From positions 62,001-126,000 of the forward strand of contig JALHNO010000014.1 in the NCBI GenBank assembly GCA_022843465.1: DNA of 64,000 bases. Direction: 5' to 3'. The notes beneath the pieces are model-generated. The model saw only the letters and a program-made list of their open reading frames with translations. It was not told the DNA's origin and searched no databases. Shown here piece after piece: positions 52,486 through 63,735 of this stretch. The position numbers and the translations under genes are program-made. The stretch's first letter is position 1; the number at the start of each line of letters is the position of its first letter. The DNA comes from Pseudomonadota bacterium (GTDB taxonomy: Bacteria; Pseudomonadota; Gammaproteobacteria; Xanthomonadales; Ahniellaceae).

Positions 52486-52519
52486 ATCAACGGCCGTTGC
52501 AAGCGCCCGCCCAGGCGCA

Positions 52520-52559
52520 CTGTCCGGAGCGGACAGCAGACCGCTACGGACACTGTCCG
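52520..52559 (+). promoter_or_regulatory. Two TGTCCG/CGGACA dyads, candidate enhancer sites for the NtrC-type regulator
   Basis: CTGTCCG-GAG-CGGACAG (52520-52536) is a perfect palindrome with 7-base arms. CGGACA-C-TGTCCG (52547-52559) repeats the same half-sites in the opposite order. They are centred roughly 95 and 70 bases before the start inferred for the downstream sigma-54 promoter, a normal position for bacterial enhancer-binding proteins. The operon itself encodes such a protein, so autoregulation is the likely meaning. Confidence 0.65.
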
Positions 52560-52596
52560 AAATCCGGTAAATCATTAAAAAACAATGGTTTATATG

Positions 52597-52613
52597 TTGG
52601 CATGAATGCTGCG
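52597..52613 (+). promoter_or_regulatory. Sigma-54 (-24/-12) promoter of the ABC exporter-two-component operon
   Basis: TTGGCATGAATGCTGCG matches the sigma-54 consensus (TGGCACG-N4-TTGC) with the invariant GG at 52599-52600 and GC at 52611-52612, exactly 10 bases apart. Initiation about 12 bases past the GC would fall near 52623, leaving a short leader with an AGGTGAT ribosome site before the 42-codon gene. A sigma-54 activator is encoded in the same operon. Confidence 0.75.
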
Positions 52614-52640
52614 GTGCTGAGGCATCCAGCAGGTGATGCC

Positions 52641-52769
52641 ATGAACACAGTTGCTACTTCAGTCGAATACAACGACGCACCCCGGGGCAGCGCGCGGCGC
52701 CTGCTGTTCAAGATCGGCGGCGCTCTTCTGTTCTCCCTGGCGATGGTCGTGGTCGGGAGTCTGCTGTGA
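52641..52769 (+). CDS. 42-residue single-span membrane protein, first gene of the operon
   Basis: A short reading frame with a good AGGTGAT ribosome site at proper spacing. The predicted peptide has a hydrophilic N-terminus (MNTVATSVEYNDAPRGSARR) and one hydrophobic helix from about residue 24 to the end (KIGGALLFSLAMVVVGSLL), with positive-inside Arg/Lys residues before it. Its stop overlaps the GTG start of the adaptor gene (GTGA), coupling the two. I recognise no family. A small accessory subunit or regulator of the exporter is possible, or a leader that couples translation. Confidence 0.65.
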   Translation: MNTVATSVEYNDAPRGSARRLLFKIGGALLFSLAMVVVGSLL

Positions 52770-54034
52770 TCCGCGACACCTCGGGGCAGGACCGCAGCAT
52801 GGAACTGCCAGCTGTCGCTGGTCAGTCCGTGCGCCGCTATGCCCGCTGGCTCGTGTTGCTGGCCGTGTTGGCGATACCGGTGTTTCTGCTGATCGGCTGG
52901 ATGTCGAGCGAGCGCTCGATCAGTGCCGAACGATTGCGCATTGCCGAAGTCAGCCGGGGCACGCTCATTCGCGATGCTTCGGTGAATGGCCGCATCGTGG
53001 CCGCGGTCAGCCCGACCCTTGCGGCACCAGCGCCGGCGACGGTGAGTCTGCGCATCAGTGCCGGCGATGCGGTGAACAAGGGCGATCTGCTGGCTGTGCT
53101 CGATTCCAAGGAGCTGAGCAACCAGATGCAGCGCGAACGCGCGGCACTGGATGAGCTGCAGGCCCAGGTCGACCGTGCCGCGATCCTCACCGACAAGCAG
53201 AAACTGCTGGCGCGTCGCGATGCTGACGAGGCCGAAGTGACGCGACTCGGCGCCGAGCGCGAATTGCAGCGCAGTGCTGCCGGATTCAAGCGTGGTGCCA
53301 TCGCCGAGGTCGACTATCTGCGCGCCCAGGATGCGCTCAAGAGTGCCGAAATTCGTGCCCGTCATGCTGCCGCTGCGGCCGAGTTGGAAGGCCGCGATGT
53401 CGTGCTCGACCTGCGTTCGCGACAGCAGCAGCTGGCGCGCCAGCGCCTGGTTTTCGAAGACGCCAGACGACGCGTCGAAGAGCTGCAGGTTCGCTCGCCA
53501 GTGGACGGTGTGGTGGGTACGCTGGCGGTTGCCGATCGCGCTGTGGTGACCACCGGCGCAGCGCTGATGACCGTGGTTGACCTTTCCCGCCTCGAGGTTG
53601 AAATCGAAGTGCCCGAGAGCTACGCCGATGATCTCGGGATCGGCATGACGGTGGAAGTCACCATCGCCGGCCAACTGCACGTGGCCAGCCTCTCGGCAAT
53701 TTCCCCTGAAGTGGTGGCCAACCAGGTGCTCGGTCGTGCCCGCTTCAGCAACGCGCAGCCGGACGGCCTGAGGCAGAACCAGCGGGTCACCGCGCGCGTG
53801 CTGATCGAAGAGAAGCCCGATGTGCTGATGCTGGCGCGTGGTCCCTTCCTGGAGGCGGGTGGTGGCCGCAAGGCCTGGGTCATCAAGGGCGGCATTGCCG
53901 AGCAGCGCGATATCCGGATCGGCTCCACCAGTGTCGCGGCCGTGGAAATTCTGGAAGGACTCGTCGTAGGCGATCAGGTAGTGATCGCCGGCGCGGATCT
54001 TTTTGGCGAGGCCACACGGGTCCAGATCAATTGA
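52766..54034 (+). CDS. HlyD/MacA-type periplasmic adaptor (efflux membrane fusion protein)
   Basis: A 422-residue membrane fusion protein that would bridge the inner-membrane ABC exporter to an outer-membrane channel. It has a cytoplasmic tail, one membrane helix (RWLVLLAVLAIPVFLLIGWM), a split lipoyl domain (VSLRISAGDAVNKGDLLAVLD and ELQVRSPVDGVVGTLAV), a long coiled-coil hairpin between them (about 105-220), then beta-barrel and membrane-proximal domains. The start is a GTG overlapping the small gene. It is first of the structural genes and is followed by the ATPase after 79 bases. Confidence 0.92.
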   Translation: MIRDTSGQDRSMELPAVAGQSVRRYARWLVLLAVLAIPVFLLIGWMSSERSISAERLRIAEVSRGTLIRDASVNGRIVAAVSPTLAAPAPATVSLRISAGDAVNKGDLLAVLDSKELSNQMQRERAALDELQAQVDRAAILTDKQKLLARRDADEAEVTRLGAERELQRSAAGFKRGAIAEVDYLRAQDALKSAEIRARHAAAAAELEGRDVVLDLRSRQQQLARQRLVFEDARRRVEELQVRSPVDGVVGTLAVADRAVVTTGAALMTVVDLSRLEVEIEVPESYADDLGIGMTVEVTIAGQLHVASLSAISPEVVANQVLGRARFSNAQPDGLRQNQRVTARVLIEEKPDVLMLARGPFLEAGGGRKAWVIKGGIAEQRDIRIGSTSVAAVEILEGLVVGDQVVIAGADLFGEATRVQIN

Positions 54035-54113: not shown

Positions 54114-54833
54114 ATGCTCAAGATGCAGAACCTCAGCAAGGTCTATCGAACGCACATGATTGAAACCCAGGCCCTGCGCGGCTTTGACATCCATGTGCGT
54201 GAGGGCGAGTTCGTGGCGGTCACCGGGCCGTCTGGCTCTGGCAAGACGACGTTTCTCAACATTGCCGGATTGCTGGAGGAGTTTTCCTCGGGCGAGTATC
54301 TGATCGATGGCGTGAATGTGGCGGGTCTCGACGACAATGCCCGTTCGCGGCTGCGCAACGAAAAGATCGGCTTCATCTTTCAGGGCTTCAATCTGATTCC
54401 GGATCTGAACCTGTTCGACAACGTCGACGTACCCCTGCGCTACCGCGGCTTCGACAGTGCCGAGCGCAGACGCCGGATCGAACAGTCGCTGACCCAGGTC
54501 GGGCTTGCTTCGAGACAGCGCCACTACCCGGCCGAACTCTCGGGCGGCCAGCAACAGCGTGTTGCCATCGCGCGTGCGCTGGCCGGCTCGCCCAAGCTGC
54601 TGCTTGCCGATGAGCCAACCGGAAATCTCGACTCCAATATGGCGCGCGGCGTGATGGAGCTGCTGGAAGAGATCAATGCAGCAGGCACCACCATTTTGAT
54701 GGTGACCCACGATCCCGAGCTTGCGGCGCGCGCACAGCGCAACGTGCACATCATCGATGGCCAGGTGTCCGATCTGGAGCACGAGACGCGCCGTGCACTG
54801 GCTTCGTTGTCGACCACGCCGGAAGCCGTCTGA
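54114..54833 (+). CDS. MacB/LolD-type ABC transporter ATPase
   Basis: A 239-residue nucleotide-binding protein of the MacB/LolD subfamily. It has Walker A GPSGSGKTTFL (from residue 38), Q-loop FIFQGFNLIPDLNLFDNV, signature LSGGQQQRVAIARAL, Walker B LLLADEPTGNLD and the switch His in MVTHDPELA. Such ATPases drive mechanotransmission-type exporters rather than classical transport. The two FtsX-like permeases directly downstream are its partners. The C-terminal about 25 residues extend past the ATPase core. Confidence 0.94.
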   Translation: MLKMQNLSKVYRTHMIETQALRGFDIHVREGEFVAVTGPSGSGKTTFLNIAGLLEEFSSGEYLIDGVNVAGLDDNARSRLRNEKIGFIFQGFNLIPDLNLFDNVDVPLRYRGFDSAERRRRIEQSLTQVGLASRQRHYPAELSGGQQQRVAIARALAGSPKLLLADEPTGNLDSNMARGVMELLEEINAAGTTILMVTHDPELAARAQRNVHIIDGQVSDLEHETRRALASLSTTPEAV

Positions 54834-54843
54834 GGAGTTCAGC

Positions 54844-56157
54844 ATGTTCCGCTACTACCTGAGTCTCGGATTTCGCAGCCTGCGCCGCAATCCCGTGCTT
54901 ACCGCGCTGATGGTACTGACGCTGTCGGTGGGCGTTGCCGCCAGCATCACCACGCTGACCATTCTGCACGCGATGTCGGGCAATCCGCTGCCGCACAAGA
55001 ACGAACAGCTGCTGGTGCCCCTGCTGGACAATCTTCCGGCCGACAACGGCAACGACGATGGTGAGCCGCCCGAACAGCTGACCTTCATGGATGCCATGAA
55101 GCTGTGGGAGCAGAAGGCAGCATCCAGGCAGACTCCGCTGTATGGGCTGTCGCCGGCAATCGACTCCGGTCGCGCCGACCTGCCGCCCTTTTTTACCGAG
55201 GGCGTTGCCATTGGCCGTGACTTCTTCGCCATGTTCGAAGCCCCGTTCCTGTACGGTGACGCGTGGTCGGCCGAAGAGGATGCACGCGCGGCCAAGGTGG
55301 CGGTGATCAGCCGAAGCCTTGCCGATCGGCTCTTCGACAGCGGCAGCAATCCGGTCGGCAAGACGGTTCGCATCAGCGACAACGATTTCTCCATCGTCGG
55401 AGTGCTCGACAGCTGGAACCCGGTGCCCAAGGTCTATCGCCTGATCGGCAGCGAACGCTTCGACACCAGCGAAGATGTGTTTGTGCCCATCCGTACCGCG
55501 GTTGCGCTCGAGTTCGACCGCAATGGCAGCATGGACTGCAGCAGCGAGCCGCCAGCGCCCGGTTTTCAGGGTTACCTGCAGTCCGAGTGCAACTGGGTGC
55601 AGTACTGGGCCGAGTTGGACGCCGCGTCGTCGCGTTCCCGCTATGCCGACTATCTGCTCGCCTATGTCAACGAGCAGAAGGCGCTCGGCCGGTTTGTCAG
55701 GCCGCCCAACAACCGGCTGTACAACGTCGGCGAATGGCTGGATTCGCGCGGCGTGGTCGATGACGACACGCGGACTTCGACCTGGCTTTCGTTCGCTTTC
55801 CTGCTGGTCTGCCTGGTCAATACCGTGGGCCTGCTGCTGGCCAAATTCAGCGCTCGACCGGGTGAGATCGGCGTGCGCCGCGCGCTCGGGGCGACGCGCG
55901 CGGATGTGTTCCGCCAGTACCTGACCGAGGCGGCGGTCATCGGTGTGGTGGGCGCCTTGATCGGCCTGGTGCTGACCTGGAGCGCACTCGCCTACATCCG
56001 GAGTCTCGATGCCAGCCTCGCCCTGGTCACCCGTCTGGACGGCACCATGCTGGTGACTGCGGTAGCAGTCTCGATCGCAGCCAGCCTGCTGGCCGGACTG
56101 CTGCCGACCTGGCGGGCCTGCCAGGTGGTACCGGCGTTGCAACTCAAGAGCCAGTAG
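54844..56157 (+). CDS. MacB/FtsX-type ABC permease, first of two
   Basis: A 437-residue permease with the MacB topology: one N-terminal helix (NPVLTALMVLTLSVGVAASI), a large periplasmic domain (about 45-310) with MacB_PCD elements such as VISRSLADRLFDSGSNPVGK, then three helices of the FtsX domain. The coupling segment GEIGVRRALGATRADVFRQYL sits in the last part. The start is 10 bases after the ATPase stop. It probably forms a heterodimer with the next permease. Confidence 0.9.
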   Translation: MFRYYLSLGFRSLRRNPVLTALMVLTLSVGVAASITTLTILHAMSGNPLPHKNEQLLVPLLDNLPADNGNDDGEPPEQLTFMDAMKLWEQKAASRQTPLYGLSPAIDSGRADLPPFFTEGVAIGRDFFAMFEAPFLYGDAWSAEEDARAAKVAVISRSLADRLFDSGSNPVGKTVRISDNDFSIVGVLDSWNPVPKVYRLIGSERFDTSEDVFVPIRTAVALEFDRNGSMDCSSEPPAPGFQGYLQSECNWVQYWAELDAASSRSRYADYLLAYVNEQKALGRFVRPPNNRLYNVGEWLDSRGVVDDDTRTSTWLSFAFLLVCLVNTVGLLLAKFSARPGEIGVRRALGATRADVFRQYLTEAAVIGVVGALIGLVLTWSALAYIRSLDASLALVTRLDGTMLVTAVAVSIAASLLAGLLPTWRACQVVPALQLKSQ

Positions 56158-56222: not shown

Positions 56223-57449
56223 ATGGAAGTTCGACCGATTCTGTCTGCCATGCTGCGCAACAAGACCGCGCCCCTGCTGATTGCCGCCCAGGTTGCCCTG
56301 ACTCTGGCGATCATCTGCAATGCGCTCTACATCATCCGCGACCGCCTGAGTACAGCGGCGCGTCCGACCGGTGCCGATGAGACGAATCTGTTCGAGATCC
56401 GCTTCTATCCGCATCGCCCGATTGCCGATATCCGCGGCATGCAGATCCGCGATCTGGAGGCGTTGCGGGCGATTCCGGGTGTGCGTTCAGTCGCCTGGGT
56501 AAATCAGATTCCGCTCGGGCAATCAAGCTGGAACATCGGCGGGCTCACTACCGAGCCGGGCAAGCGCGACAGCAACATCCAGGCGACCTATTATTTCAGC
56601 GGTGGCTCGCTGATCGATACCTTCGGACTCAGGCTGATCGAGGGGCGCGACTTCCAGTCGTCCGAGGTGGTCGAAAGTGATCCGCGCAAGGAGCGCGCGG
56701 AGCCACAGGTGATGATCATCACGCGGGCGCTGGCCGAGCTGCTTTTTCCCGGTGCGGCCTCGGTCGTCGGCAAGTCCTTCTATCTGGGTGGCAGCGACGA
56801 TGCCAAGCCGGTCCGCATCGTCGGTGTCGTCGAGCGCCTGCAGAGCCCCAGCGCACCCGCAGGTGCCCGTGCCGAGCTGAGCATGATTGCGCCGATCACC
56901 TATCTTGATGGCTATACGCGCTATGCCGTGCGCGCCGAGCCAGGCCAGCGCGAGCGCGTGATGGCGGAAGCTGAGAAAGCCTTGCTGGCGCTGAGCAATG
57001 ATCGCGTCCTGCTCGGCAAGGGCGGATTCGATGAATTGCGCGCGCGGCGTTATTCGGGAGAACGCATCATGGCCGGCTTGCTGATTGCAGTGACCGGCTT
57101 TCTGCTGCTGATCACGGCCAGCGGTATCGTCGGTATCGCCAGTCTCTGGGTCAATCAACGGCGCAAGCAGATCGGTGTCCGCCGCGCGCTGGGTGGCCGC
57201 CGCGTCGACATCCTGCGCTACTTCGTCACCGAGAACGCAATCATCACGACGGCTGGTGTTCTGGTCGGCCTGAGTCTCGCGTTGGCGCTGAATCACGTTC
57301 TGGTCGGCGCCATCGAGCTGCCACGGCTGCCGCTGATCTATCTGGGTCTTGGCGCCCTCGTGATGTGGTTGCTGGGGCTGCTGGCGGTCTCCGGGCCGGC
57401 CTGGCGTGCCGCCCAGGTTTCGCCGGCGATCGCGACGCGCAGCGTCTGA
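56223..57449 (+). CDS. MacB/FtsX-type ABC permease, second of two
   Basis: A 408-residue permease with the same layout as its neighbour: a first helix (PLLIAAQVALTLAIICNALY), a periplasmic domain with GLRLIEGRDF and LFPGAASVVGKSFYLGG, and three C-terminal helices with QIGVRRALGGRRVDILRYFV. The periplasmic domain is shorter and differs from the first permease, so the pair is not a recent duplication. It lies 65 bases after that gene and 87 bases before the response regulator. Confidence 0.9.
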   Translation: MEVRPILSAMLRNKTAPLLIAAQVALTLAIICNALYIIRDRLSTAARPTGADETNLFEIRFYPHRPIADIRGMQIRDLEALRAIPGVRSVAWVNQIPLGQSSWNIGGLTTEPGKRDSNIQATYYFSGGSLIDTFGLRLIEGRDFQSSEVVESDPRKERAEPQVMIITRALAELLFPGAASVVGKSFYLGGSDDAKPVRIVGVVERLQSPSAPAGARAELSMIAPITYLDGYTRYAVRAEPGQRERVMAEAEKALLALSNDRVLLGKGGFDELRARRYSGERIMAGLLIAVTGFLLLITASGIVGIASLWVNQRRKQIGVRRALGGRRVDILRYFVTENAIITTAGVLVGLSLALALNHVLVGAIELPRLPLIYLGLGALVMWLLGLLAVSGPAWRAAQVSPAIATRSV

Positions 57450-57536
57450 TGGCACCGCGGCCGACTGCCCCTCGGCGTGGATGCCATCCGCGCTGGCGCC
57501 TGATGCATCTTCGCCACAGCCCCGTACAATTCCGCC

Positions 57537-58886
57537 ATGCCCACTCTGCTTCTGATCGATGACAACCCGAGCGTGCTGAAAGCGCTGTCGATCCTGTTCT
57601 CGCTGCAGGATTATCGGGTGTTGACGGCAGAAGATCCCGAGGCGGGGCTGGCGAAGCTTGCGAATGACGAAGTCGACCTGGTGATCCAGGACATGAATTT
57701 CGCCGCTGACACCACGTCGGGCGCGGAAGGCGAAGCTCTGTTCCGCTCGATCCGGGCGCGCCATCCCGATCTGCCGGTCATCCTGCTGACCGCTTGGACC
57801 CATCTCGATGCTGCCGTGCAACTGGTGAAGGCAGGTGCCGCCGATTATCTGTCCAAGCCCTGGGATGATCGCCGGCTGACGGCGAGTGTGCAGAATCTGC
57901 TGGAACTCGGCCAGGTGCAGCGCGAACTGACACAGCGCGTGCAAGCGGACCAGGCCCAGCGACGTGCCTTGGAGCGGCAGTTCGATCTGCGTGGCTATGT
58001 CTGGGCCGATCCGCTCACCGAGCGTGTGCTGAATCTGGCCTGCCAGGTGGCTCGAGCCGATGTGCCGGTGCTGATCCGTGGCCCCAATGGTGCCGGCAAG
58101 GAAGGGATAGCCGCGATCATCCAGGCCAATTCGGCGGTCAAGACCGGCCCGATGATCACGCTCAACTGTGGTGCGCTGCCGGCTGAGCTGATCGAGGCCG
58201 AATTGTTTGGCGCCGATGCGGGGGCCTATACCGGCGCCAGCAAGGCGCGCGAAGGCAAATTCGAGGCGGCCGACGGTGGCACGCTTTTTCTCGATGAAAT
58301 CGGCAATCTGCCCCTGGCCGGTCAGATGAAATTGCTGCGCGTGCTGGAAACCGGTCGCTTCGAGCGATTGGGTTCCAACCGTGAGCGCCAGGTGCGCGTG
58401 CGTGTGATCAGTGCCACCAATGCCGACCTTCCGGCAATGATCAAGCGCGGACAGTTTCGCGAAGACCTTTACTACCGGCTGAACCTCATCGAGATCCAAC
58501 TGCCGGCGTTGTGCGAGCGGCCTCGCGATATCCTGCCACTGGCCCGCCACTTTCTACGCGCCGATCAGGTGCTCAGCGAGTCGGCCGAACAGGCGCTGCG
58601 GCAATACCCATGGCCGGGCAATGTGCGTGAGTTGAAGAACGCGATCACCCGCGCCTCATTGCTGGCGCGAGATATCACCATCACCGCCGAAGATCTGCAT
58701 CTGCCTGCGCGCGAGCCGGTGGTCGCCAGTGTGCCGCGGGATGATCTGGAGCCAGACCGCGAGGCGATCGAGACTGCCATCGCCCGCCACAGCGGCGTCA
58801 TCGCACAGGCTGCAGCCGAACTGGGATTGAGCCGGCAGGCGCTCTATCGGCGCATGGACCGGCTTGGCATCGGCCGGGCACCATGA
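57537..58886 (+). CDS. NtrC-family sigma-54-dependent response regulator
   Basis: A 449-residue regulator with three domains. The receiver has phospho-acceptor Asp52 (LVIQDMNF) and Lys107 (LSKPWD). The AAA+ domain carries Walker A GPNGAGKE (182-189), the sigma-54 contact loop GAYTGA (229-234) and Walker B GGTLFLDEIG. The C-terminus is a Fis-type helix-turn-helix (AQAAAELGLSRQALYRRM). All elements for sigma-54 activation are present. It probably activates its own operon through the upstream dyads. The kinase start overlaps its stop by four bases. Confidence 0.95.
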   Translation: MPTLLLIDDNPSVLKALSILFSLQDYRVLTAEDPEAGLAKLANDEVDLVIQDMNFAADTTSGAEGEALFRSIRARHPDLPVILLTAWTHLDAAVQLVKAGAADYLSKPWDDRRLTASVQNLLELGQVQRELTQRVQADQAQRRALERQFDLRGYVWADPLTERVLNLACQVARADVPVLIRGPNGAGKEGIAAIIQANSAVKTGPMITLNCGALPAELIEAELFGADAGAYTGASKAREGKFEAADGGTLFLDEIGNLPLAGQMKLLRVLETGRFERLGSNRERQVRVRVISATNADLPAMIKRGQFREDLYYRLNLIEIQLPALCERPRDILPLARHFLRADQVLSESAEQALRQYPWPGNVRELKNAITRASLLARDITITAEDLHLPAREPVVASVPRDDLEPDREAIETAIARHSGVIAQAAAELGLSRQALYRRMDRLGIGRAP

Positions 58887-60205
58887 CGCTATCCCATTGG
58901 CAGCGCAGATCGCTGTCGGGCCGGGTTGCCGGGCTGGCATTTCTTGTCGCGGTCCTCAGCGTATTGCTGATGATCCTGTTGCCACGATGGCTGGAGAGTC
59001 AGGCGGCGGTGGCCGTGCTGAGTCTGGCTGGCGCGCTGTTGCTGTCGCTGTGGTGGGGTAGACGTCTGCTGCGTGATCATCTCTCGATGTTCCGCGCGCT
59101 GGCCGGAACGGTGAACAGCTTTCGCGACGGCGATTTCAGTTTTGCCCTGCGCTGGCAACGTGACGACGAGTTGGCGGAGCTGGTGTCGGCGCACAATGAA
59201 CTCGGCCAAGTGCTGCGTGCGCAGCGGCTCGGCCTGGTGCAGCGCGAGTTGCTGCTCGATACGATGGTACAGAACACGCCAGTGGCGATGCTGCTGCTGG
59301 CCAAGGGCGGCGTCGTGGTCTATGGCAATCTGACCGCGCGCCAGTTGCTCAACAAGGGTCGCCCGTTGAACGGCCTGCGTCTGGGCGAGATTCTCGACGG
59401 CAATGACGGTGCGTTGCGCGAAGCGGTTGACCGGGGTGGCGATGGCCTGTTCTCCATCGGCGAGCAGGAGCAGGAGGAAATCTATCACCTGGCGCGGCGT
59501 GCCTTCCTGCTGAACGGACGCCAGCACGAGTTGCTGATGCTGCGCCGGTTTACCCAGGAGCTGCGCCGTCAGGAGGTACAGACCTGGAAGAAAGTGATCC
59601 GCGTGATCAGCCATGAGTTGAACAATTCGCTGGCGCCAGTGGCGTCGCTGGCGCATTCCGGTCGTGAGCTGCTGCGGCGGGGCAGGGCGGAGCAACTGGA
59701 TGAAATTTTCGAGACCATCGAGGAGCGCGCCCGCCATCTGGAGTCCTTCATCCAGGGCTACGCGCGCTTCGCAAAACTGCCGACCCCGCGACTGGAATCG
59801 GTTACCTGGAGCGATTTCATCAAGCGTCTGGCGGCACAGGTGGGCTTTGTGCTCGATGGCGAACTTCCGGATGTTCCGGCGCGCTTCGATGCCGGGCAGC
59901 TGGAGCAGGCCCTGATCAACCTGCTGCGCAATGCCCACGAATCTGGTTCGCCTGCCGGTGAGGTGCGTCTGCGGGTCGAACTGCTGCGCAACAGCTTCCG
60001 ACTGTTGATCCTGGATCGTGGTCCGGGCATGACCGCGACCGTGCTCGCCAACGCCCTGGTGCCGTTCTATTCGACCAAGCGTGCCGGCACCGGCCTGGGG
60101 CTGGCCCTGGCGCGCGAGATCATCGAGGCGCATGGCGGCAGCATCAGTCTCAACAATCGTACCGACGGTGGCTTGCAGGTCAGTCTGCTGCTGCCGGTTG
60201 GGTAG
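58883..60205 (+). CDS. Sensor histidine kinase partner of the NtrC-type regulator
   Basis: A 440-residue membrane kinase: two N-terminal helices (LAFLVAVLSVLLMILL and AVAVLSLAGALLLSLWW) with almost no periplasmic loop, a HAMP-like segment, a PAS-like domain (about 120-215), the H box VISHELNNSLAPVASL with His244, N box LINLLRNAHE, and DRGPGM and FYSTKRAGTGLGL ATP-binding boxes. The minimal periplasmic part suggests it senses a membrane or cytosolic cue, or the exporter itself. It is the last gene of the operon. Confidence 0.94.
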   Translation: MTLSHWQRRSLSGRVAGLAFLVAVLSVLLMILLPRWLESQAAVAVLSLAGALLLSLWWGRRLLRDHLSMFRALAGTVNSFRDGDFSFALRWQRDDELAELVSAHNELGQVLRAQRLGLVQRELLLDTMVQNTPVAMLLLAKGGVVVYGNLTARQLLNKGRPLNGLRLGEILDGNDGALREAVDRGGDGLFSIGEQEQEEIYHLARRAFLLNGRQHELLMLRRFTQELRRQEVQTWKKVIRVISHELNNSLAPVASLAHSGRELLRRGRAEQLDEIFETIEERARHLESFIQGYARFAKLPTPRLESVTWSDFIKRLAAQVGFVLDGELPDVPARFDAGQLEQALINLLRNAHESGSPAGEVRLRVELLRNSFRLLILDRGPGMTATVLANALVPFYSTKRAGTGLGLALAREIIEAHGGSISLNNRTDGGLQVSLLLPVG

Positions 60206-61085: not shown

Positions 61086-62012
61086 CGCATCACGGTGAAT
61101 CGCTAGACTGATAGGCAGCCTGTTTTTTCTTGTAGGTACCGCGCTTCTTGACTTCCGGCTCCGGCACAAGCGCCGCGATCTCTTTCAGTGACCAGACGTG
61201 ATCCGAGATGCCTGCTTCCATGGCTGGCGTAACGCGCAGAGTCTTATGGATGCGGCCGAAGTTGTAGTGCATGAAGTGCAGCGCGATGGCGTGAACGTGG
61301 TTCTCAACCTTCTTTGAGAAGCCATTGGTCGGGCGGGTAAAGCGGCGCATGCCCATGCGCTTGGTCAGGTTCTGGAGCTCTAAGTAGCTCGTGGAAACGT
61401 GCTTCATGTCCGGGGTGCCCTCAATCACCGTTCGCTCTTCGCCGATGATCTGGGGTGGGCTGTAGCGGCGCTGTCCTTCCGGGGCTTCGCCGAACACCTT
61501 AACCAGGGTCGCATAGTCCACATCGCTGCCGAACGCGCTTTCTATGGCGTTCACGTAGACCTTGAGACCGTCCGTAGTGATCTGAACGCGGTTGCTCAGA
61601 CGGCCGGCCAGATCGCCGATAAAGTCGTGTGCTGCGTCAGCATTGCGACGGCCGACCATCCAAGCTGCGATCAGCTTGGTATCCGCATCAATCGCGGTCC
61701 ACGTCCAGACATCGCCGAAGCCAAACACGCCGCGCTTTTCTTCCGGCACGTTGCGCTGCTTGGCGTTCACGAACGACCAGATTTCATCGAGCTGCAAGCG
61801 CTTGCAGGTCAGGTTACGCAATGCCTTGTCTTGGTACTCAGCACAGGCTGCGCCAACGTCAGACAAAAGCTTGAGTACCGTAGCCTTTGCGGCTCCGGAC
61901 ACTCGGCAGGTTGCATTGATGCTCATGCCTTTAACGAGAAGGCCGAGGATTTGGGCGCGCTTGGTGATCGGCATCTGATTCATGCTGAACAGTATGCTTG
62001 AGCGGTCATGCA
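61086..62012 (-). mobile_element. IS1-like insertion sequence (927 bp) with 8-bp direct repeats
   Basis: The transposase gene is bracketed by identical 8-base direct repeats ATGTCAAG at 61078-61085 and 62013-62020, the size IS1-family elements generate. Immediately inside, the ends are imperfect inverted repeats: CGCATCACGG on the left and, read from the right, TGCATGACCG, with further loose matches (TAGACTG / CATACTG). The transposase stop codon falls within the left end, so the element is minimal. The ends are my reading and should be compared with known IS1-group ends. Confidence 0.65.
61090..61983 (-). CDS. IS1-family-like DDE transposase
   Basis: A 297-residue single-frame transposase. 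The N-terminal helix-turn-helix (ILGLLVKGMSINATCRVSG) is followed by an RNase H-like core with Asp66 (LQLDEIWSFV), Asp138 (QITTDGLKVY) and Glu227 (GFSKKVENHVHAIALHF), the expected DDE spacing for IS1-type enzymes. Unlike classical IS1, no InsA/InsB frameshift is needed. The frame looks intact, so it may still be active. The ATG before NQMPITKRAQ is preferred to upstream codons that lie outside the element's coding logic. Confidence 0.85.
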   Translation of the reverse strand: MNQMPITKRAQILGLLVKGMSINATCRVSGAAKATVLKLLSDVGAACAEYQDKALRNLTCKRLQLDEIWSFVNAKQRNVPEEKRGVFGFGDVWTWTAIDADTKLIAAWMVGRRNADAAHDFIGDLAGRLSNRVQITTDGLKVYVNAIESAFGSDVDYATLVKVFGEAPEGQRRYSPPQIIGEERTVIEGTPDMKHVSTSYLELQNLTKRMGMRRFTRPTNGFSKKVENHVHAIALHFMHYNFGRIHKTLRVTPAMEAGISDHVWSLKEIAALVPEPEVKKRGTYKKKQAAYQSSDSP

Positions 62013-62066
62013 ATGTCAAGAGATAGGAATAGAATAGGAATATTTTTGTTGACTAAAGAAGTCTAC

Positions 62067-62708
62067 ATGATAAAGTTCAATCCCCCGCAGCGACGGATCA
62101 TCCAGATGCTCGTCAACCAGCAACAAGCTCTTGTCGATCTCGATCCACATGTCGACACGATCCATTCGATGGTTAGCTCCGCAGTCCGTCTCTACGAAAG
62201 CCTTCCCGCTGGCGTGAAGCTCCTGTTCACCCAAAGAACAAAAGCTTCATCGATTCACGATTTCTTCTTTGGCGAGGCGGTGAGGTTTTGCGAGAACCGG
62301 GCAGATGCTCGCGTTCACGTCCAAAACCAGATGCGCTTACTGGTTCTCGACGAACGTTATGTTTTCAGGTTCAAACTGGTTGACGAAGACGACTTACCGA
62401 GGAACCAGCTCACTGCGCAGGTTCGTGACTTTCGAGGGCAGCAAGACATAGAAGGACTTGGAACCTTCTATCACTTGGAGATTGGTTACGGCCTCTCGGA
62501 AATTGGGCAGTTGGATAGAGTCCTTCTTGTGTGCCCTTCGTCAGCGAAAGCTAACGCATGGGTCTCAAAGATAGTTGGCGGCGAACAGAAACCTGTTGTG
62601 GTTCCGCTCTTCCCTGATGCACCAGAACCTCAAGAGACCAAAGTCCGTGGAAAGTACGACATCGAAAAGCCAGAATCCGAACCCGGAGATGCTGATCCTG
62701 GCGCGTGA
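62067..62708 (+). CDS. Unknown protein paired with an XRE-ImmA/IrrE gene (possible toxin)
   Basis: A 213-residue soluble protein preceded by AAAGAAG. It begins MIKFNPPQRRIIQMLVNQQQ and has helical and strand segments (VQNQMRLLVLDERYVFRFKL, GTFYHLEIGYGLSEIGQLDR) and an acidic, Pro-rich tail. I recognise no catalytic motif. Its 3' end overlaps the start region of the HTH-metallopeptidase gene in another frame. Pairs of an unknown protein and an XRE-ImmA/IrrE protein often behave as toxin and antitoxin or as phage-defence modules, so a toxin role is a reasonable guess, not a demonstration. Confidence 0.6.
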   Translation: MIKFNPPQRRIIQMLVNQQQALVDLDPHVDTIHSMVSSAVRLYESLPAGVKLLFTQRTKASSIHDFFFGEAVRFCENRADARVHVQNQMRLLVLDERYVFRFKLVDEDDLPRNQLTAQVRDFRGQQDIEGLGTFYHLEIGYGLSEIGQLDRVLLVCPSSAKANAWVSKIVGGEQKPVVVPLFPDAPEPQETKVRGKYDIEKPESEPGDADPGA

Positions 62709-63735
62709 GCTTCGCGGGGTGTCTCAAACCGATCTGGCTGAGCGGGTCGGTTTGAAGCAGCCGCGTATCGCAAAGCTCGAAATCGGCCATGGCGCAGAAA
62801 TCTCTGAAGAAGAGATGTCCAAGATCGCGCAAGTGCTGCGTATGCCAGTAAAATTTTTCTACCAATCAGGTGATCGCGTCGGCTTTGGCACGAGCGAGAT
62901 GTACACGAGAACCCGCCAGATGGTGGCTTCCGAGAAGAAGCGCATATCTGGCGTGGTCAACGTCCTGCGTCTGCAGTTAAAAAAGATGCTCGACTTCGTA
63001 GAGATTGGGGCCACGCGGCAACTACCCAGAATGTCCGTTGCCGAATACGGAAGTGCTGGCACCGTCGCACTTGCTGTTCGCTCAGCTTGGGGAATACCAA
63101 GCGGACCAGTGAAGAATGTGACAAAACTTCTTGAAGCGGCCGGCGTGATCGTTGTTGAGTGCGATTTTGGAACCAGCCCTATCGACGCGACGAGCATTGT
63201 TACGGCCGACATGCCACCCTGCATCTTCATGAACAAAAACGTTCCTGGCGACCGGTGGAGATTCACGCTGGCCCACGAACTTGCTCACATCGTGATGCAT
63301 AGTGCTCCGCATCCGGCGATGGAGGAAGAGGCTGATGAGTTCGCTTCGGAATTCCTGATGCCCTCTGAGGACATCGCTCCAATGCTTGCCTTTGGTGAAC
63401 GATTGGGCCTCGAAAAGCTCGTCGTTCTTAAAGAGATATGGAACGTATCGATTGCTGCGCTTGTGATGAAGGCAGAGGCGCTAAGAAAGATCACGCCGAA
63501 TCAGAAAAAATGGATCTATGCGCTAATGAACAAGCAGGGAATTCGGATCTCTGAGCCCGCACCATTGGCTCGGGAACGAGCGTCAGTTTTCGAAGGGATT
63601 CTTGGGTATTTTCGGGAGACCGCGAAGTTCTCTGATGAGGTTTTCGCCGATATGGTCATGCATCTTCCGGAAGAACTAAGCGAGCTTTACGACTACGCCC
63701 CGCGTCCGAACCGTGTCCGGCTTCGGGTTGTTTAG
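62617..63735 (+). CDS. XRE-type HTH plus ImmA/IrrE-family metallopeptidase
   Basis: A 372-residue protein with an N-terminal Xre helix-turn-helix (MLILARELRGVSQTDLAERVG, split here as MLILARELRG and VSQTDLAERVG) and a COG2856/ImmA-type zinc peptidase whose HELAH lies at residues 220-224, with EEEADEFASEFLMP supplying the third ligand region. Such proteins cleave or neutralise a regulator or partner (ImmA cleaves the ImmR repressor). Start choice is uncertain: this ATG overlaps the upstream gene by 92 bases, a GTG lies ten codons later, and an ATG at 62689 begins the HTH directly. It lies in the AT-richer region. Confidence 0.8.
   Translation: MHQNLKRPKSVESTTSKSQNPNPEMLILARELRGVSQTDLAERVGLKQPRIAKLEIGHGAEISEEEMSKIAQVLRMPVKFFYQSGDRVGFGTSEMYTRTRQMVASEKKRISGVVNVLRLQLKKMLDFVEIGATRQLPRMSVAEYGSAGTVALAVRSAWGIPSGPVKNVTKLLEAAGVIVVECDFGTSPIDATSIVTADMPPCIFMNKNVPGDRWRFTLAHELAHIVMHSAPHPAMEEEADEFASEFLMPSEDIAPMLAFGERLGLEKLVVLKEIWNVSIAALVMKAEALRKITPNQKKWIYALMNKQGIRISEPAPLARERASVFEGILGYFRETAKFSDEVFADMVMHLPEELSELYDYAPRPNRVRLRVV

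Follow-up and report, generated by a model that had tools for sequence, protein, structure and literature searches.

An ABC exporter operon preceded by a predicted sigma-54-type promoter and TGTCCG half-site arrays that track its response regulator

What switches on an ABC exporter operon that carries its own NtrC-type response regulator (RR) and histidine kinase? This question is raised by a locus in a 64,000-nucleotide stretch of DNA, referred to here as the window, from a member of the Ahniellaceae (order Xanthomonadales). All operon features lie on the forward strand. The first gene encodes an HlyD/MacA-like periplasmic adaptor that scores above the RND_mfp (TIGR01730) cut-off (positions 52766 to 54034). 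It is followed by genes for an ABC ATPase that is DarD/LolD/MacB-like, under the cut-offs of those models (54114 to 54833), and for two permeases with MacB_PCD and FtsX domains, permease A (54841 to 56157) and permease B (56223 to 57449), which align with the first and second halves, respectively, of the ADOP model (TIGR03434). The last two genes encode the RR (57537 to 58886) and a histidine kinase with N-terminal hydrophobic segments (58883 to 60205), both assigned from Pfam and NCBIfam domains. This content agrees with the initial annotation, which described an exporter operon ending in an NtrC-type activator with a GAYTGA motif and its kinase.

The RR has the Pfam architecture Response_reg-Sigma54_activat-HTH_8 and all the features of an NtrC-type RR (bEBP): the receiver aspartate, the AAA+ Walker motifs, the GAYTGA loop, and a Fis-type HTH. 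D52 of the receiver and Walker A and B were kept in all 81 aligned RRs, with one variable position in Walker A, and the tyrosine of GAYTGA was kept in 80 of the 81. The recognition helix, SRQ(A/S)LYRR, was identical in nearly all RRs among the matches listed. The kinase has an SHELNN motif, whose histidine was kept in 71/72 aligned sequences. Behind the operon, inspection by eye found an IS1-like transposase frame (61090 to 62019, reverse strand) and a frame that begins with an HTH and carries a HELAH metalloprotease-like motif (62575 to 63735, forward strand), possibly marking the edge of a mobile element.

Upstream of the adaptor gene is a -24/-12 sigma-54-type promoter element, TTGGCATGAATGCTGCG, at 52597 to 52613, assigned by its spacing and by comparable sites in relatives. 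On inspection of the sequence, GG (52599 to 52600) and GC (52611 to 52612) are separated by ten bases, which upholds the exact GG-N10-GC spacing claimed initially. Set against a TGGCAY-N5-TTGC context, the window has TGGCAT and CTGC, and it scores 20 of 23. Transcription would start near 52624. Two TGTCCG/CGGACA dyads had been placed 70 to 95 bases upstream of the start, and their centers are indeed about 96 and 71 bases 5' of it. Dyad 1, TGTCCGgagCGGACA (52521 to 52535), is a TGTCCG/CGGACA palindrome. Dyad 2, CGGACAcTGTCCG (52547 to 52559), has the arrangement CGGACA-N1-TGTCCG, so that compared with dyad 1 the order of the arms is reversed, as in a mirror, and the spacer is a single base. The two dyads therefore do not repeat a single design; together they amount to four half-sites. 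The TGTCCG of dyad 1 sits at -77 and the CGGACA of dyad 2 at -51, both of which are conserved distances from the -24 element. Between the half-sites and the promoter is an IHF-like word, AAACAATGGTTTA (52580 to 52592), with one mismatch to the consensus WATCAANNNNTTR; relative to the T of TGGCA, it lies at -18.

The initial annotation did not include a 42-amino-acid open frame with one hydrophobic segment (52641 to 52769), which lies between the promoter and the adaptor gene and overlaps the adaptor's GTG start. It had no Pfam or NCBIfam match, and no counterpart was seen in relatives, where promoters sit nearer the adaptor gene. Because of this frame, the promoter-to-adaptor distance in the window (152) is the longest of the 75 compared below.

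The palindromes might instead terminate transcription of the upstream gene or belong to a scattered repeat, with the -24/-12 match arising by chance. They do lie about 100 bases behind the preceding gene. TGTCCG-N0-8-CGGACA occurred once in the window, compared with 0.05 occurrences expected. However, TGTCCG-N1-6-CGGACA occurred in four places in the 5.18-Mb genome and its reversed control in two, so that the dyad alone is weak evidence. Loose sigma-54 patterns were also hardly distinguishable from background: TTGGCAYN6TGC had 27 sites in the genome versus 15 for the reversed control, and TGGCACGN5TGC had 29 versus 33. For this reason, interpretation was limited to sites with half-sites. At least two exact half-sites within 140 bases upstream were found at the window site and at one other of the 27 TTGGCAYN6TGC sites. 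Unlike a lone dyad, the combination of promoter and half-sites is not weak evidence. No terminator-like site was predicted at 52500 to 52600, and the comparison with relatives, described next, contradicts this explanation. A similar promoter and half-sites recurred in front of the same adaptor gene, at characteristic distances, in two orders and were absent from operons in RR-less genomes. We therefore consider a terminator or chance origin extremely improbable.

Relatives of permease A at an E value of up to 1e-40 were found in 144 of 250 genomes of the order. The gene order adaptor-ATPase-permease A-permease B-RR-kinase recurred among 100 loci compared, in Xanthomonadales (Arenimonas, Lysobacter, Luteimonas, Stenotrophomonas, Xanthomonas, Pseudoxanthomonas, Dyella, and Rhodanobacter, among others) and in Burkholderiales (Massilia, Duganella, and Janthinobacterium, among others). 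Among the matches listed, RR identity to the window's RR was 62 to 76%, whereas permease identity fell to about 45% and below. The window and the 100 loci (20 plus 80) made 101 sources, and adaptor starts were mapped in 84. Setting aside four duplicates (L068, L077, L079, and L084) and three loci from genomes without the RR (L129, L146, and L161) left 77. With a threshold of at least 19 of 23, a sigma-54-like site was found before 75 of these 77 adaptor genes, at a median of 35 nt from the adaptor start. L133, in an RR-containing genome, had neither a good site nor half-sites, and L114 had half-sites without a good site within 300 bases. The site at L132 was poor.

The 115-base regions upstream of the 75 sites contained 265 exact half-sites, whereas 200 mononucleotide shuffles gave 5.6 on average and never more than 12. 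At least one half-site was present in 74 regions and at least two were present in 68. After clustering at 75% identity, the corresponding numbers were 69 and 63 of 70 clusters. The half-sites peaked at particular positions relative to the -24 element: TGTCCG at -79 to -76 and CGGACA at -62 to -59 and -52 to -50. Thus, the proposal of a sigma-54-type promoter with TGTCCG half-sites before an exporter operon ending in RR and kinase genes held up in both Xanthomonadales and Burkholderiales, and the arrangement tracks the RR (see below).

What was conserved is not the dyad. TGTCCG-N3-CGGACA had been put forward as a concrete binding motif. It was present in 1 of the 75 operons, the window itself, and we rejected it as a conserved dyad. 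A scan for it in relatives, as had been suggested, would miss the orthologues. Its half-site is conserved, and that part of the proposal stands, with binding a prediction. The dyad 2 arrangement, CGGACA-N1-TGTCCG, was found in 7/75 operons, TGTCCG-N12-CGGACA in 18/75, and TGTCCG followed by CGGACA with a start-to-start distance of 26 or 27 in 20/75, including the window. Frequent start-to-start offsets between half-sites were 6, 8, 9, 12, 18, and 26. No single spacing was fixed across the 75 regions and one dimer site could not be defined, which is unusual for a simple dimer operator. As judged from these regions, the conserved unit is the predicted half-site, in arrays of variable spacing.

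The IHF-like word, allowing at most one mismatch, occurred in 59/75 regions, compared with 2.7 in shuffles. In 48 of the 59 its position relative to the T of TGGCA was -17 to -19, as in the window (-18). It was weak at two other targets in the same genome (3 and 4 mismatches; see below). An IHF site between the enhancer and a sigma-54 promoter is frequent but not obligatory, and classical IHF sites lie farther from the -24 element than this word does. Therefore, although the word is a putative IHF site, it may be another element.

If the RR acts through the half-sites, then genomes that have the exporter and not the RR are informative. We fetched 15 such controls from the order, chosen by available permease coordinates among the listed matches rather than at random. 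Two were too short, and in 5 of the remaining 13 the adaptor start was only roughly placed and the upstream region was partly coding. None of the 13 adaptors had a sigma-54-like site scoring at least 19, and a single half-site was found among them, downstream of the best site. The three loci set aside above (L129, L146, and L161) had no half-site; at L146, a sigma-54-like site scoring 20 lay 189 bases from the start. Together, 0/16 adaptors from RR-less genomes had a site with half-sites. Conversely, two genomes with the RR far from the exporter (G003 and G053) kept both the site and the half-sites at their exporter promoters (L070 and L080). In one genome without a detected RR (G246 C44:48549-51930; L214), we observed what looks like an intact operator and promoter in front of a shortened adaptor frame close to the end of a contig. 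The same genome also keeps the promoter linked to trmL that is described below, a picture that suggests recent loss or an assembly gap.

An alternative keeps the sigma-54 promoter and assigns the TGTCCG array mainly to a different regulator, for instance a paralogous RR or a repressor, with the operon's RR acting elsewhere. The variable half-site spacing would suit this. So would a second, distantly similar exporter operon in the same genome (L242; G000 C4:213000-228000). This operon includes an NtrC-type RR (40% identical) and a kinase of its own, and CGGACA half-sites precede its TTGGCACG-N5-TGC site. The second RR could bind the same sites. However, a second regulator does not explain why the site and half-sites were missing from the 13 RR-less controls and from L129, L146, and L161, and why they were kept where the RR lies elsewhere in the genome. 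We consider this alternative unlikely. The anatomy of the promoter region, its conservation, and its co-occurrence with the RR are established at the level of sequence and comparison, and we think it likely that the exporter operon is switched on by the RR encoded in it.

Whether the RR also activates its own production is a separate question. The initial annotation had described a complete positive feedback circuit. In the window, an 87-base gap precedes the RR gene and no terminator-like site was predicted in it, so that read-through from the sigma-54 promoter into the RR and kinase genes is plausible. Over 82 loci, the gap between permease B and the RR had a median of 89 bases; it was at most 150 in 55 loci and more than 400 in 16. 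However, a -10-like box, TACAAT (57525 to 57530), lies six bases before the RR start in the window (TACAAT-N6-ATG). No -35-like partner for it scored in a consensus scan, and it is a possible leaderless basal promoter for the RR. A TANNNT box starting 9 to 16 bases before the RR start was present in 42/81 loci, compared with 3.3 in shuffles; a set of Burkholderiales loci had one in 27 of 27. It is probable that the RR often has its own basal promoter, perhaps leaderless. We also looked at four genomes in which the RR and kinase genes are detached from the exporter, picked since their coordinates differed from the exporter's (G003, G053, G226, and G188; in G188 the two are on different contigs). 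None of the four RRs had a sigma-54-like site scoring at least 20 within 2.5 kb upstream.

These observations raise the alternative that the regulation is as proposed but without meaningful feedback: the RR and kinase would have a separate promoter, and their position in the operon would serve linkage only. The -10-like boxes and the detached RRs favor it, whereas the closeness of the RR gene to permease B at most loci and the lack of a predicted terminator-like site in the window's gap speak against it. We regard it as somewhat doubtful, though a serious possibility. A complete feedback circuit is more than the comparison bears out: with a -10-like box before many RRs and no sigma-54-like site at the detached ones, autoactivation is at most one layer of control, dependent on lineage and not universal.

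Our working model is as follows. The kinase would sense a signal, probably related to the envelope, and phosphorylate the RR. The RR would then bind the TGTCCG half-site array about 40 to 100 bases upstream of the -24 element, and DNA bending at the IHF-like word beside that element would bring it to sigma-54 RNA polymerase. Its AAA+ domain, with the GAYTGA loop, would open the promoter. The output would be the adaptor, the ATPase, and the two permeases, and read-through would raise the amount of RR and kinase, with a weak promoter just before the RR gene probably supplying basal RR. The same switch would also drive a small regulon, which in this genome would consist of a 73-amino-acid exported peptide encoded upstream of trmL and the second exporter operon.

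The predicted regulon came from searching for half-sites with a sigma-54-like site. This pattern was matched in 103 of the 250 genomes searched in the order, and many Xanthomonadaceae had a second site. It missed the trmL-linked site of the window's own genome, where its gap limit was too short; that site was reached via trmL. We examined 20 of the places. Ten were before a short protein with a signal-peptide-like start, upstream of trmL; these proteins carry repeats such as VDLPAVTVRPDA or TLxTVQVRPSA. Four, in Arenimonas relatives, were before other short exported-looking proteins upstream of trmL, and three were before a second exporter operon. The others were a short protein adjoining an ABC ATPase gene, the exporter itself, and one unassigned place. 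Seven of the short proteins were compared with NCBIfam NF052303 (XAC0231 family): one was above the cut-off, three were below it, and three had no match. None of the seven had a Pfam match above the cut-off.

We extended the trmL analysis to 96 genomes, asking for a sigma-54-like site scoring at least 20 plus at least two half-sites upstream of trmL. The genomes were not a random sample (30 with the best trmL matches, 6 from the window's own family, and 40 with and 20 without the RR that were picked), and they cover 74 of the 118 RR-containing genomes. The trmL-linked promoter was found in 53/74 genomes with the RR, counting one poor match (G109) and three without an open frame of the wanted kind, and in 2/22 genomes without it (G033 and G246). 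By group, it was present in 29/40 Xanthomonadaceae, 21/25 Rhodanobacteraceae, 3/6 of the window's own family, and 0/3 others, with family names resting on identity or similarity to named loci. The 21 RR-containing genomes without it include three of the window's own family (G003, G015, and G048). The environmental relative Arenimonas caeni has both promoters in one genome, that of the exporter (L085) and the trmL-linked one (L282). In several trmL-linked loci (L195 to L197 and L202 to L207), a stretch about 80 to 130 bases behind the promoter was alike in many genomes and gave repeated chance translations such as IRCTTLLPHH. Could this be a conserved 5' leader element?

In the window's own genome, the trmL-linked gene encodes the 73-amino-acid protein, with CTGGCACGAACACTGC 90 bases upstream and CGGACA 67 bases upstream. 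Among the 27 TTGGCAYN6TGC and 29 TGGCACGN5TGC sites of this genome, three places had at least two exact half-sites: the window, the trmL-linked gene, and the second exporter on contig C4. In Burkholderiales, a pattern scan of 19 genomes found the same arrangement, with five or six half-sites, before a TldD-family gene in seven (G335 to G341). The product of this gene has a twin-arginine-like start, and further tldD/tldE-like genes lay behind it in both regions that were read gene by gene (L402 and L403). In these regions (L402:3772-17701 and L403:6065-12710), we observed two TldD/TldE-like pairs in a row behind the same type of promoter, followed at L402 by MoxR-like ATPase, DUF58, and BatA-like genes.

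These putative targets bear on what the exporter does. It had been called an efflux-type transporter, and the family resemblance stands; the function as efflux was not borne out. The co-regulated genes are just as suggestive of exported peptides. MacB-type exporters take their substrates from the periplasm. Together with a regulon of a small exported protein and exported TldD-type proteases, this makes a peptide, as substrate or as signal, no worse a fit than drug efflux. The alternative is that the exporter is an efflux pump for antibiotics or peptides from outside, induced via the kinase, rather than a system for secreting the cell's own peptide. Its resemblance to MacAB-type pumps favors this, periplasmic peptidase-like genes among the targets would fit detoxification, and a 2025 study files such permeases under antimicrobial peptide transport (PMC12316311). 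However, a pure efflux role leaves little room for a co-regulated small exported protein. We give the efflux pump close to an even chance. A more specific reading is that the RR is the master switch of a peptide secretion and processing pathway, comprising the exporter, its own substrate or helper, and, in Burkholderiales, exported TldD-type proteases; we hold this only tentatively and think it rather unlikely as a whole. The substrate or helper would then be the fast-evolving small exported protein upstream of trmL (the XAC0231 family and unlike-looking short proteins in the same place).

A side observation concerns the permeases. Tandem arrays of permease A-B pairs were seen at L120 and L121 (at least seven pairs each, cut at the locus ends) and also at L109, L115, L134, L136, L152, L153, and L162. 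In several of these loci the array is visibly flanked by a single adaptor-ATPase pair and a single RR-kinase pair. Rhodanobacteraceae have as many as seven permease pairs, or more, behind one adaptor-ATPase pair, as though a single motor worked with many channels, each specific for its substrate.

The operon resembles several known systems. Its adaptor, ATPase, and MacB_PCD/FtsX permease parts are like those of the MacAB-TolC and DarBCD exporters. Unlike in those exporters, the ATPase and permeases are separate genes, there are two permeases, and there is no outer membrane channel gene in the operon. Scores were under the cut-offs for MacA (69.5 of 342), DarC (35.5 of 450), and DarD (264 of 375). 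The ATPase gene scored 216.2 of 966 for MacB, and with separate genes and no fusion, we rejected membership in the MacAB (macrolide) family. The ADOP family, a single duplicated permease, was also rejected: its two halves are in two genes here, with permease A aligning to positions 7 to 401 (177 bits) and permease B to positions 412 to 801 (180 bits) of the 803-position model (cut-off, 622).

SmaCDEF of Stenotrophomonas maltophilia is likewise a four-gene ABC efflux pump in related bacteria; it is linked to levofloxacin, and the mechanism of its over-production is said to be unexplained (PMC12189255, PMC11356428). The operon is not SmaCDEF, because the published forward primer, by which alone the locus was matched, lies in another gene (G085 C1:1.54 Mb, versus about 3.93 Mb for the operon).

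The closest NCBIfam model for the RR is PrsR (TIGR02915). PrsK/PrsR is a sigma-54 control system of PEP-CTERM genes, and it too has an NtrC-type RR and a kinase (Haft et al. 2006, PMC1569441). By comparison alone, that paper described an enhancer motif, sometimes repeated, followed by a -24/-12 motif at about 63 nt. However, the window's RR scored 335.8 against a cut-off of 502.6, and its kinase 70.7 against 300 for TIGR02916. The half-site here is CGGACA/TGTCCG, whereas the enhancer described for PrsR ends in TTTACA, and the targets are the exporter and other exported proteins, unlike the PEP-CTERM genes of PrsR (PMC1569441). With the TIGR02915 cut-off missed and a different half-site, we rejected membership in the PrsR family.

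A general link between sigma-54 and FtsX-type exporters has been in print since 2025, which limits the novelty of our findings: sigma-54 promoters were reported to be enriched before FtsX-like ABC permeases (COG0577) in Gammaproteobacteria, and this was called the first evidence (PMC12316311). The passages of that paper on this enrichment do not give an enhancer motif, a regulator, an operon-encoded RR, or a regulon like these. In the open-licence literature that was searched, taken mostly at the level of titles and the beginnings of abstracts, we recognized neither this operon, nor the motif with its regulator, nor XAC0231/XAC1346; the regulator, the half-site array, the link to the RR, and the regulon did not turn up there.

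Comparison of sequences alone has thus yielded a predicted circuit for this exporter family, conserved in two orders: a regulator and its half-site, the architecture of the promoter, and a short list of targets. The circuit is thereby made testable, and the small exported protein linked to trmL offers a direct way into the question of what is exported. With three predicted targets in the window's own genome, the regulon is small enough to test whole.
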